Source: Acidocella aquatica
GTDB lineage: Bacteria; Pseudomonadota; Alphaproteobacteria; Acetobacterales; Acetobacteraceae
NCBI RefSeq assembly: GCF_030160635.1
Contig: NZ_BSOS01000005.1
Location: 124,001-188,000 of the forward strand
DNA: 64,000 nt
Direction: 5' to 3'
A program made the translations under genes and the position numbers. The notes beneath the pieces were generated by a model, which ran no database searches, was not told the origin of the DNA, and was given only the letters and a program-made list of their open reading frames with translations. Below are positions 35,022 through 38,188 of this stretch, in pieces (within the stretch, counting starts at the first letter, position 1; every line of letters begins with the position of its first letter).

Positions 35022-35591
35022 CAGCGCCTGCAGCGCCCCTGGGGGGAGTGTCACGTCGGAAAATCCGTCGGGCAGCGCAAATTCCTGCGCCGGTTGCGGG
35101 GCGTAGGCGACGGAAAGCGCGGTCACCTCGGCTGAACCATGCGCGTCATGCCCGGCGAAATGCAGCACTACGCCATCGGGCGTGATGCAGGCGGTGCCGG
35201 AGCCCTGGGCGTTGAGTACCAGATATTTCTGGCAGGCCATGCCAGCATAATGCCCTGAGCCCAGCGGGGTGAACTGGGCGCCGCCGGCGGTGGAGATTTC
35301 CTGCGTCAGGGCCGAGAAATCAGGTGCCTGCACAATGGCGTGCAAGGCGGGGACCACCACCTGCGCCTGGCCCGAGGGCAGGTTCGCCAGGATATAGACG
35401 CCCTGGGCGGGGTTTTCGACCCGCGCCAGCTCCTGCGCCGCGTCGTAGTTCAATTGATAATTCTGGGCCGCGCGGCCGGGCGCATCCAGCTCATAGGTGA
35501 TGGCGACATCGCGGGTGGGCAGAAACGCGGGTGTCGCCAGGGCGGGGGCCGCGGCCAGCAATGCGGGCAATACGAAGGGTAAAATTCTCAT
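35007..35591 (-). CDS. Exported hypothetical protein
   Basis: A 194-residue protein with a signal peptide (RILPFVLPALLAAAPALA, cleaved near residue 19). The mature part is beta-rich: repeated strands such as VAITYELDAPGRAAQNYQLNY, GVYILANLPSGQAQVVVP, KYLVLNAQGSGTACITPDGVVLHF and AEVTALSVAYAP. That would suit a lipid-binding or DUF4412-like periplasmic fold, but I cannot assign it. One Cys pair (CQKY and TACI) may be disulfide-bonded. It overlaps the aat stop by four bases (35588-35591), so the two are coupled. Confidence 0.65.
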   Translation of the reverse strand: MRILPFVLPALLAAAPALATPAFLPTRDVAITYELDAPGRAAQNYQLNYDAAQELARVENPAQGVYILANLPSGQAQVVVPALHAIVQAPDFSALTQEISTAGGAQFTPLGSGHYAGMACQKYLVLNAQGSGTACITPDGVVLHFAGHDAHGSAEVTALSVAYAPQPAQEFALPDGFSDVTLPPGALQALLQPQ

Positions 35592-36253
35592 GGTGATTCT
35601 TTCCTCATGGCCTCTATCTCGCGCAGCAATACGGCAGGATCAGGGCTGGCGGTGAAGTGCGCCGGAATTTCCACCGCTTGCGCCAGCAAGGCATGATACG
35701 CCGCGCGGGGGATTTCCATCGCGCCGAAGCGGGCCAGATGCGCGGTGATGAACTGTGTGTCGAGCAGCGTGAACCCGCCCAGGCGCAGCCGCGCGAGCAG
35801 ATGCACCAGCGCCACCTTGGAGGCATCCGTCGCGGTGGAGAACATGCTCTCGCCGAAAAAAGCGCCGCCCAGGCAGGCGCCATAAAGCCCGCCGGCCAGT
35901 TTGCCGTTCTCCCAGGTCTCCACGCTATGGGCGAAGCCGAGGTGGAACAGCTCGATGAACAGCCGCTCGATCTCCTGGTTGATCCAGGTCTCCGGCCGGT
36001 TTTCCCGCGCGGCGGCGCAGGCGGCGATGGTGCCGGGGAAGTCAGCGTCAGCCGTGACGGTGAATTTGCCGCTGCGCAGGGTTTTCATCAGGCTGCGGGG
36101 CAAATGAAATTTATCCAGCGGCAGCACCCCGCGTGCCTCCGGGTCGAGCCAGTGCAGTGTTTTGCTGCTGCGCGACTCCGCCATGGGGAACAGCCCCAGC
36201 CGGTAGGCCCGGAGCAGCAGGTCTGGATTAAGGGTGAATGGCCGGGCGGACAT
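35588..36253 (-). CDS. aat: Leucyl/phenylalanyl-tRNA-protein transferase
   Basis: Adds Leu or Phe from aminoacyl-tRNA to N-terminal Arg/Lys of proteins, marking them for ClpS/ClpAP degradation. LLLRAYRLGLFPMAESRSS, LHWLDPEARGVLPLDKFHLPRSL, ETWINQEIERLFIELFHLGFAHSVETW, LAGGLYGACLGGAFFGESMFS and LLDTQFITAHLARFGAMEIPR are the family's conserved blocks. At 221 residues it is complete. In many alphaproteobacteria aat follows accC in the same direction; here it faces accC on the other strand. Confidence 0.94.
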   Translation of the reverse strand: MSARPFTLNPDLLLRAYRLGLFPMAESRSSKTLHWLDPEARGVLPLDKFHLPRSLMKTLRSGKFTVTADADFPGTIAACAAARENRPETWINQEIERLFIELFHLGFAHSVETWENGKLAGGLYGACLGGAFFGESMFSTATDASKVALVHLLARLRLGGFTLLDTQFITAHLARFGAMEIPRAAYHALLAQAVEIPAHFTASPDPAVLLREIEAMRKESP

Positions 36254-36307: not shown

Positions 36308-36335
36308 AAAAAACCCTGGGCATTATGACCCAGGG
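36308..36335 (-). terminator. Rho-independent terminator, reverse strand
   Basis: Perfect 7-bp arms CCCTGGG (36314-36320) and CCCAGGG (36329-36335) with an 8-base loop. They are followed on the reverse strand by a T-run (36313-36308). It should end the transcript of the 63-residue protein gene before aat. Confidence 0.8.
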
Positions 36336-36414: not shown

Positions 36415-36455
36415 CCCTCAGGTCAAGCCCGCATGAGGCGAAAGTGACCTGAGGG
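36415..36455. repeat. Perfect 11-bp inverted repeat just past the peptide gene
   Basis: CCCTCAGGTCA (36415-36425) pairs exactly with TGACCTGAGGG (36445-36455), with a 19-base loop. It starts 11 bases past the stop of the 63-residue protein gene and has no T-run. Together with the terminator at 36308-36335 it would give the short mRNA a stable 3' structure. A protein-binding operator is the alternative. Confidence 0.7.
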
Positions 36456-36465
36456 AGGGAATTAT

Positions 36466-36657
36466 TCAGCGTTCGGGGGACGACATGGCCCAGGCGTGGG
36501 CATGAACCAGGCCGTCGTCGTAATCGTGAAACGTCACCGTGGCCTTGCGCTCGCGGGACTCGCGGGCCCAGCCGTGGGAGTGCACCAGGCCATCATCATA
36601 ATCGTGGCCCTGCATGGTTTCGATGGAGGTTCTGGCGGTGGTGGTCTGGGTCTGCAT
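36466..36657 (-). CDS. 63-residue protein with two HDYDDGLVHxHxWA repeats
   Basis: ATG 36657 is preceded by CAGGAG seven bases upstream, and the normal ribosome site supports expression. The protein is a short polar leader (residues 1-17), then HDYDDGLVHSHGWA (18-31), a basic spacer RESRERKATVTF, then HDYDDGLVHAHAWA (44-57) and a 6-residue tail. Twelve of 14 repeat residues are identical. The corresponding codons differ at five synonymous and two nonsynonymous positions, so the motif itself appears to be conserved by selection. Three His and three Asp per repeat suggest metal binding; a modified-peptide precursor is another possibility. No modifying enzyme is adjacent. It is divergent from a ScfR/RamB-type regulator. 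Confidence 0.7.
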   Translation of the reverse strand: MQTQTTTARTSIETMQGHDYDDGLVHSHGWARESRERKATVTFHDYDDGLVHAHAWAMSSPER

Positions 36658-36760
36658 GGCGGGTCTCCTGGGTACGCGGTGGTTTGGCGTAACACAGTTA
36701 ATAATTTACATTGCACCGCGATGCATAGCGCAAAATCACCGGGCACCCTCGAAATAAGTC

Positions 36761-36797
36761 TTCAACTTTACTGTAAAAATTTGCTATATGTAAATCA
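36761..36797 (+). promoter_or_regulatory. Promoter/operator of the ScfR/RamB-type regulator
   Basis: TTTAC-T-GTAAA (36767-36777) is a perfect 11-base palindrome. A related half-site pair, TTTGC (36780-36784) and GTAAA (36790-36794), follows immediately and ends two bases before ATG 36797. TATATG (36785-36790) could be the -10 box, in which case transcription would begin near the ATG itself. There is no Shine-Dalgarno sequence. The arrangement suggests an autoregulated, leaderless or near-leaderless transcript. Short TTTGC-type sites are known for related regulators of short-chain fatty acid metabolism. Confidence 0.45.
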
Positions 36798-38188
36798 TGT
36801 CAAAGACCGCCATTGGTAAAACCATCCGCCGCCTGCGCATGGAGCAAGGCTATTCGCAGCAGGGACTGGCACAAAAACTAGGTATCTCAACGAGCTACCT
36901 TAACCTCGTCGAGCATGACCAGCGCAATGTCACGGCTTCGTTGCTGTTCAAGCTGACGGATATTTTGCACGTTGACCTCGCGGCGCTCTCAGGCGTGCAG
37001 GAGCGTGAGTTCGAGGTGGCGTTGCGCGAGGTGTTCGCCGACCCGCAACTGGCCATAGAACCGGTGCCCGAGGCTGAGATTCAGGCCCTCGCCGCCGCGC
37101 CCAATGGCGCGCGCGCGATTCTGGCGCTGCACCGCGCCCTGGCCGGGGCACGCGAGGAGTCATTGGGCATCACCTTGCCTTCGGGGCGCAAGATCATGCT
37201 GCCGAACGAAGAGGTGCGGGATTTTTTCCATGACCATGAAAACCATTTTCCGGCGCTTGAAGCCGCCGCCGAGGCCATCAACGCGACCCTGAACGCGCAG
37301 ACCATCGGCAGCAGCCACGCTCTGGCCGAGCGGTTGCGCCAGGTGCATGGGCTGATCGTGCGTGTGCAGCCGCTCCCCGGCGCGCTGCGGGTGTTTGACG
37401 CCAAGGCCCGGCTGCTCACGCTCTCGGAGGATCTGCCGCGCGAGAGCCGGGGGTTCCAGATGGCGTTCCAGCTTGCCCTGCTGGAAGCGCGTGACGCGAT
37501 CGACCCGATCATCAAGGCCGCCAATCCGTCGTCGCGCGATGCCACCGAGCTGCTGCGCATTGGGCTGCTCAACTACATTACCGGCGCCATCCTGATGCCC
37601 TATGATGCGTTTTTGGAGACCGCGCGGCATCTGCGCTACGATGTGGACGCCATCGCGGCGCGTTTTGGCGTGAGCTACGAGCAGGCCTGCCACCGGCTCT
37701 CCACCTTGCAGCGCAATGGCGCGCGGGGGGTGCCGTTCTTCTTCCTGCGGGTGGACCCGGCGGGCAATGTCAGCAAGCGCTTCTCGGCGGCCGGTTTTCC
37801 CTTCATGCGCTTTGGCGGCACCTGCCCGCGCTGGATCGTCCATTCCGCCTTCGCCACGCCGGGGACCATCCGCGTGCAGGTGGCGCAGCTGTCGGCCACG
37901 GAAACCTTTCTCTGTTTCGCGCGCGCCATCACCGGCCGCCCGGCGCGCTGGGGCGAGCCGCCGCCGGTGCGGGTTGTCGCCATGGGGTGCGATATCAGCC
38001 ACGCCGGAGAAGTGGTTTATGGCGACGGGCTGGATCTCGCCACCGCCGCGGTGGGCATTGGCCTCTCCTGCCGGTTGTGCGATCGCCAGGACTGCCGCTC
38101 GCGCGCGTTTCCGCCCCTTGCGCACCGCCTCAGCATCGATCCGCTGACCACCAGCGCCAGCCCGTATAAATTCGAGGCGAAGAAATAA
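36797..38188 (+). CDS. XRE-family regulator of the RamB/ScfR (short-chain fatty acid) type
   Basis: A 463-residue protein. Residues 7-60 are an XRE helix-turn-helix (IRRLRMEQGYSQQGLAQKLGISTSYLNLVEHDQRNV). The centre corresponds to the ImmA/IrrE-like region, but the HExxH metal site is not visible; the equivalent segment reads NYITGAILMPYDAF. The C-terminus is DUF2083, with FMRFGGTCPRWIVHSAFATPG and a four-Cys GLSCRLCDRQDCRSRAFPP. Members such as RamB, PrpC-region regulators and ScfR control acetate, propionate or glyoxylate metabolism by sensing acyl-CoAs. acs, pckA and the thiolase in this window would be plausible targets, but that is inference. Likely autoregulated. Confidence 0.85.
   Translation: MSKTAIGKTIRRLRMEQGYSQQGLAQKLGISTSYLNLVEHDQRNVTASLLFKLTDILHVDLAALSGVQEREFEVALREVFADPQLAIEPVPEAEIQALAAAPNGARAILALHRALAGAREESLGITLPSGRKIMLPNEEVRDFFHDHENHFPALEAAAEAINATLNAQTIGSSHALAERLRQVHGLIVRVQPLPGALRVFDAKARLLTLSEDLPRESRGFQMAFQLALLEARDAIDPIIKAANPSSRDATELLRIGLLNYITGAILMPYDAFLETARHLRYDVDAIAARFGVSYEQACHRLSTLQRNGARGVPFFFLRVDPAGNVSKRFSAAGFPFMRFGGTCPRWIVHSAFATPGTIRVQVAQLSATETFLCFARAITGRPARWGEPPPVRVVAMGCDISHAGEVVYGDGLDLATAAVGIGLSCRLCDRQDCRSRAFPPLAHRLSIDPLTTSASPYKFEAKK

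Follow-up and report, generated by a model that had tools for sequence, protein, structure and literature searches.

What is the role of a 63-residue protein that carries the same 14-residue motif twice and is encoded back to back with a metabolic regulator? The question is raised by a small open reading frame in the window, i.e. the whole 64,000-nucleotide stretch of Acidocella aquatica DNA analysed here. The frame lies on the minus strand (36657..36466), begins with ATG and ends with TGA. In its surroundings the following features were registered:

35588–36253, minus strand: aat, leucyl/phenylalanyl-tRNA-protein transferase, by Pfam/NCBIfam
36314–36335, minus strand: terminator-like hairpin followed by TTTTTT, further downstream of the small gene and not above shuffles
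36415–36455: 11-nt inverted repeat (arms 36415–36425 and 36445–36455) downstream of the small gene
36466–36657, minus strand: small protein with the two-copy tail motif, a probable descendant of an isocitrate lyase (ICL) gene without the catalytic core
36487–36528, minus strand: motif copy 2, HDYDDGLVHAHAWA, used in the codon comparison of the two copies
36565–36606, minus strand: motif copy 1, HDYDDGLVHSHGWA, the same motif as in the C-terminal tail of ICL1
36704–36715, minus strand: conserved promoter/operator-like element TGCAATGTAAAT, common to upstream regions of ICL1
36797–38188, plus strand: divergent RamB, a ScfR-family regulator (HTH, IrrE-like domain and ScfR C-terminal domain)

The protein has the layout MQTQTTTARTSIETMQG-HDYDDGLVHSHGWA-RESRERKATVTF-HDYDDGLVHAHAWA-MSSPER, and its HDYDDGLVHxHxWA copies begin at residues 18 and 44. 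A recount confirmed the initial annotation in that two copies of 14 residues follow each other with a period of 26 and that their codons differ by five synonymous and two non-synonymous changes. At the DNA level the duplication covers 60 nt with 77% identity and a spacing of 78 nt. Selection on the amino-acid motif, deduced in the same annotation, is also evident from comparison of the small gene with four close relatives (L001–L004), for which dS was 0.35–0.68 and dN only 0.05–0.07, that is 7–21% of dS in the four comparisons. Thus, the small protein is under purifying selection. Nothing in Pfam or NCBIfam matched it above cut-off, isocitrate lyase (PF00463) included, and the tail stretch considered below is all it has in common with this enzyme. 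The hit to COQ9_N of Pfam (E = 0.089, below cut-off) was taken as chance, and the Rfam scan of the window gave no match.

Of the DNA signals previously ascribed to the gene the inverted repeat is present; it has perfect arms and is not followed by a T-run. The terminator stood only in part: a hairpin with TTTTTT does exist at 36335–36314 on the minus strand, but one terminator-like hit downstream against a shuffle mean of 0.9 is no more than shuffles give. The divergent metabolic regulator turned out to be a RamB/ScfR-type gene and the key to the context of the small gene. Its product matches MtPrpR structures and scores 406 bits against a curated cut-off of 700 in the narrower NCBIfam model of RamB. 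The intergenic region between ramB and the peptide gene also contains an imperfect inverted repeat, ATAATTTACAT (36701–36711) and ATGTAAATCAT (36788–36798), which may be considered as candidate regulator sites. A second ScfR regulator, 37% identical, was noticed in the same genome (L083:4906–6294, C67), with a gene of the ICL superfamily (389-aa open frame) about 3 kb away. Since aat was found near the motif peptide only in Acidocella-type loci, it is probably not part of the system; the third neighbour of the small gene has no Pfam match (four window proteins were scanned).

The annotation had allowed for the motif being found in no other genome, and this clearly does not hold: a contig scan with the window peptide gave 72 loci in other genomes, all 72 with the motif, and in combination with the lack of Pfam/NCBIfam matches above cut-off this substantiates the earlier idea of a peptide family, one that is conserved and under selection. 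The loci are labelled as Acidocella, Roseomonas with its splits, other Acetobacteraceae and unclassified bins (Rhodospirillales, Alphaproteobacteria, Proteobacteria or just “bacterium”). One draw of 120 genomes of the family was used for the motif, ICL1, RamB, ICL2 and AceK searches; most of them are drafts, where absence may be missing sequence, and relatedness, ignored by the Fisher tests, inflates all association tests. The exact pattern DDGLVHxH was present in 48 of the 120 genomes and a relaxed pattern with tryptophan in 62, while their union amounts to 63 on account of G044, where tyrosine replaces tryptophan. The reversed control pattern gave no match in the 120 genomes in both searches. 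In a class-wide sample of 385 genomes the pattern D[DE]GLVHxHxW, which would miss the DHGIDH variant, was absent from all 380 alphaproteobacteria of other families; the window's own genome was the sole match and four other members of the family had none. The titles and abstract starts of the literature searched, subscription papers being outside, contained no description of an ICL tail or free peptide of this kind, and the letters DDGLVH were absent from the open-access papers searched.

Most separate reading frames contain two copies of the motif, some contain one, and the one of L030/G031 contains four. This last gene (L030:3554–4429, also L112, in G031) is core-less in the sense explained below, has at least 292 codons, being cut by the contig end, and repeats the segment IPEALVKRAM..YEWNAQ. 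In addition to the frame behind ICL1, G088 has a second two-copy one of the DEGLVH type (L208:2896–3108) on another contig. Motif peptides of the type MT[YF]AA...D[FY]YDDGLVH were observed away from both ICL and RamB (L029, L064, L204, L205 and L178); judged by eye, L029 and L064 are located near a PhaR-like regulator of polyhydroxybutyrate. In the sample this type is represented by three genomes, G043 with a tail-less ICL1 and G049 and G080 with ICL2.

At many loci a protein that reads as isocitrate lyase (..GYTATRHQREVG.GYFDAVA..SSTTA..STE..QFH..) terminates in the motif, and at most other ICL1 loci the enzyme is tail-less and a separate small frame, usually with two motif copies, lies directly downstream. 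Among 142 labelled loci, some of which are the same place fetched twice, 34 have the fused tail and 56 have ICL1 with a separate motif frame (90 of 142 together); 34 have the motif without ICL1 in the stretch, 9 have ICL1 but no motif (L156 among them ends at a contig edge) and 9 have neither. In 27 fused lyases the tail residues D447, G449, H452, H454, W456 and A457 are invariant. In the L068 protein of 461 residues the best match of a solved ICL (6lrp) stops at residue 432 and none of the solved-ICL matches listed passes residue 443, while the tail motif occupies 447–457. Structure prediction for one fused ICL with its tail, based on the 27 sequences (mean pLDDT 46, about 30 in the tail), was too poor to place the tail.

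The same association was found in the genome sample. ICL1 is present in 61 genomes, including G058 and G119 with partial-core matches only, and 54 of them have the motif, in 50 cases inside ICL1 or no more than about 250 nt downstream; the latter count is based on positions rather than on reading of every locus, and in G065 a contig break intervenes. In G043, G076, G091 and G081 a tail-less ICL1 is accompanied by a motif peptide elsewhere in the genome. By these patterns seven of the 61 ICL1 genomes are without the motif, G119 with its damaged locus among them. RamB is divergent from ICL1 in 50 of the 52 ICL1-holding loci of the 72-locus scan, and in the remaining two (L043 and L046) the stretch has no RamB. 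Orthologs of RamB (51–100% identity) were found in 75 of the 120 genomes, all 63 genomes with the motif being among them, and none of the other 45 has the motif (G119, which belongs to these 45, has a RamB fragment). The link of the motif to ICL and RamB is strong. Two kinds of disturbed loci were also seen: in G089 an in-frame stop separates ICL1 from the tail, which is open immediately after it (L159:3057–3122), while in L165 (G119) and L153 (G058) both ICL1 and the divergent RamB lack the ends that face each other, which could be a deletion of the shared promoter or an assembly artefact.

In the window and in 14 of the 72 loci (L001–L005, L008, L009, L019, L023, L030, L049, L051, L054 and L055) the motif gene replaces ICL1 beside RamB, and such loci are termed core-less. 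Their upstream regions were compared using the element [TC]GCAATGTnAAT, derived from the window and its relatives, which is located 80–93 nt from the start of RamB in most loci and further away in some. At least 10 of its 12 positions matched in 37 of 44 loci with the separate frame, 13 of 20 with the fused tail and 10 of 18 core-less ones, in 2 of 8 loci having ICL1 without the motif and 2 of 9 having neither, and in one of 495 mononucleotide shuffles. In 5 of the 18 core-less loci the match was no better than in shuffles. Conservation of the element thus suggests that core-less genes are mostly located at the promoter region of ICL1 itself.

The other trace of ICL1 is its N-terminal leader, which in this family resembles M..TP.FAPDG......RF.GI. 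A profile (HMM) built from 71 ICL1 leaders was applied to 28 distinct motif peptides of ICL1-less loci together with 1439 background frames and 1400 shuffles. Six peptides (L094, L054, L089, L049, L055 and L175) took the top six ranks, their scores lying between 14 and 30 bits, whereas none of the 2839 background sequences exceeded 8.3 bits; all six, bearing APDG, adjoin RamB. Among known systems close to the small gene is isocitrate lyase (PF00463; solved, for example, as 6lrp and 1f61): in much of the family ICL1 is extended at its C-terminus by the motif, and the leader and the upstream element are common to ICL1 and core-less genes. The difference from the lyase is that the window protein is without the catalytic core. 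The remaining 22 of the 28 peptides do not stand out, and the window peptide, which is one of them, has no recognizable leader (E = 160). L030 (YAPNSDRFDG) and L023 (TAPEGLS) look leader-like by eye, though their scores are no better than background. Descent of the window gene therefore rests on its position, motif and sister loci. The window gene shares D[DE]GLVHxHxWA, which it has in two copies, with what we define here as ICL1-derived terminal-module peptides and, as they do, occupies the promoter region of ICL1 with RamB diverging from it. On the RamB tree (19 rows, with L094 and L172 from the same genome) the core-less state requires four changes, at least two of them forced by starred branches, and by parsimony it arose in G020, G031, G099 and the Acidocella clade. 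Near the base of this clade L049 separates first and L055 next; as both keep the leader, the window gene may be read as a descendant that lost it. Derivation of the first 20 residues of the window peptide from the ICL C-terminal segment SSTTAMAGSTETAQFH was considered and rejected: the score was reached by 12 of 300 shuffles of the peptide itself, and 64 sequences, all of them shuffles, outrank it.

How then does the window genome cleave isocitrate? It has no match to ICL1, and its lyase is ICL2, encoded on another contig, about 31% identical to ICL1 and free of the motif. In the sample ICL1 (61 genomes) and ICL2 (12 genomes) never occur together, and their identity is about 30%. The motif is kept in eight of the 12 ICL2 genomes and by these patterns is absent from four; together with the seven ICL1 genomes mentioned above this means that it is dispensable, i.e. 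not essential everywhere. ICL2 is present in all but one of the six core-less genomes sampled. Only one of the 47 genomes with neither lyase contains the motif, namely G020, which combines a core-less gene beside RamB with a broken ICL1 end on another contig; the latter is an isolated C-terminal fragment with the tail (L207:2831–3208) in a genome without an intact match to ICL1 or ICL2. In G049, G080 and G056 RamB has ICL2 itself as its divergent neighbour. Eight of the 12 ICL2 N-termini bear an ICL1-type leader, occupying the top eight ranks of the profile against 1200 shuffles and 260 window frames (8.6 bits for the weakest of them and 8.4 for the best shuffle), while the window genome's ICL2 is one of the four without it. 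Since motif and leader are kept with ICL2, the terminal modules can persist when one catalytic core is exchanged for another.

Based on these data one can assume, as the reading that we consider probable from the sequence comparisons, that in the small gene the terminal part of an ICL1 gene has survived and that its motif serves as a docking module in the system of RamB and the glyoxylate shunt. In addition to the core, ICL1 of this family usually has two short modules, the N-terminal leader (..TP.FAPDG..) and the C-terminal tail (..D[DE]GLVHxHxWA..), the latter being sometimes a separate frame. The Acidocella ancestor would have lost the core of roughly 400 residues, a deletion that we infer, while the small gene remained at the promoter region of ICL, back to back with RamB, and its motif became doubled. 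The terminal modules are short, kept without the enzyme, placed in trans and multiplied, and are therefore read as short linear docking motifs, which would act in trans within the RamB-controlled circuit of the glyoxylate shunt. The attached tail may report or tether ICL, and the free two-copy peptide may be a bivalent ligand.

As the most likely partner of the tail motif we tentatively name RamB. According to the available text of the reports on RamB of Paracoccus (PMC10370305) and MtPrpR (PMC6765138), RamB controls ICL expression, CoA esters are ligands of proteins of this family, and the fold of MtPrpR resembles IrrE but is devoid of the HEXXH protease motif; this text differs from the situation discussed here in that it describes no small protein or ICL tail. 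Binding of ICL or of the free peptide to RamB would feed back on the activity of their own regulator. It is conceivable, with the same reserve, that detachable ICL modules bind RamB and, after loss or exchange of the core, were kept, moved and duplicated as its free ligand. Such a history might present a conversion of an enzyme to a regulator in several lineages and a peptide ligand for an IrrE-like, protease-derived fold. RamB and ICL co-occur almost perfectly (four RamB genomes have no intact ICL1 or ICL2, and three of these have no motif either), and phylogenetic profiles therefore cannot tell which of them is the partner. Both are more diverged at loci without the motif, and faster evolution of RamB after motif loss was not observed: the ratio of RamB to ICL divergence is unchanged (p = 0.90; among 69 loci 7 were tail-less, including L158, for which a motif peptide exists at another place), and thus gives no support for RamB over ICL.

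Nearly as likely, though in itself rather doubtful, is that the motif acts not on RamB but on an enzyme at the isocitrate branch point, be it isocitrate dehydrogenase, either ICL or another one, pushing carbon into the glyoxylate shunt or holding enzymes together; the free peptide would then be a small protein that regulates an enzyme and is expressed under the ICL promoter. In line with this, 62 of the 63 motif genomes contain ICL1 (54) or ICL2 (8), and in G102 the gene of the peptide immediately precedes ICL2. In E. coli the branch point is controlled by the kinase AceK. No AceK was found in the 120 genomes of the family, so another control may exist; this absence extends, however, to motif-less genomes and is not discriminating. 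Besides, a single ICL-binding motif would have to recognize two lyases that have so little in common, and malate synthase was found in all of 20 genomes, whether they had the motif or not. Malate synthase as an alternative carrier of the motif was rejected: eight stretches, covering the C-terminus in six cases and a clear N-terminus in four, contained no motif in any frame.

Binding of a metal ion or cofactor, with the tail delivering metal to ICL and the free peptide being a metal-binding small protein, appears unlikely. ICL is a Mg/Mn enzyme, and invariance of the aspartate, the glycine, both histidines, the tryptophan and the alanine in the 27 fused tails would fit such a role. Yet the acidic pair varies (DD, DE, DH), up to the DHGIDH variant, tryptophan is replaced by tyrosine (HSHNYA) in separate frames of some lineages, solved lyases have no such tail, and conservation of aromatic and acidic residues would be just as fitting in a docking motif. 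Still less probable is that the standalone peptide is a functionless, decaying remnant of a deleted ICL gene. Its location at the ICL1 position, the broken ICL1 end with the tail elsewhere in G020 and the promoter element unrecognizable in part of the core-less loci would be expected in this case, but dN well below dS, duplication of the motif, its retention in several lineages and the copies at other positions where ICL1 is tail-less are hardly compatible with decay. That the small protein gives rise to a modified peptide natural product, a possibility considered in the initial annotation, or is a toxin–antitoxin partner of the divergent HTH gene may be set aside as very improbable, since in spite of the short protein, the repeated core and the divergent XRE-type regulator gene the motif is also a covalent tail of ICL in many relatives, its two immediate neighbours encode RamB and Aat, and the HTH protein has the full ScfR architecture related to MtPrpR rather than being an antitoxin.

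If the small protein is a docking ligand, as we prefer to think, it resembles other short co-regulated proteins that bind a central enzyme or regulator, such as CP12, glutamine synthetase inactivating factors, AcnSP and PirC. The difference from regulators of the CP12/AcnSP/PirC type is that the small protein appears to be derived from the enzyme's own tail. CP12 is characterized by cysteine pairs, and the window peptide has no cysteine.

The ICL1 tail has thus outlived the enzyme in several lineages and is kept in eight of the 12 sampled ICL2 genomes. Its retention without the enzyme or with a distant isozyme suggests a function separable from catalysis and a job of its own in the control of growth on acetate or fats. 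For annotation of genomes it is a warning that conserved small reading frames may be enzyme parts with a second life. Small peptides that can be synthesized are now at hand for finding the tail's partner. For the biology of this large family, in which AceK was not found, the data point to a so far unrecognized control in the glyoxylate shunt.
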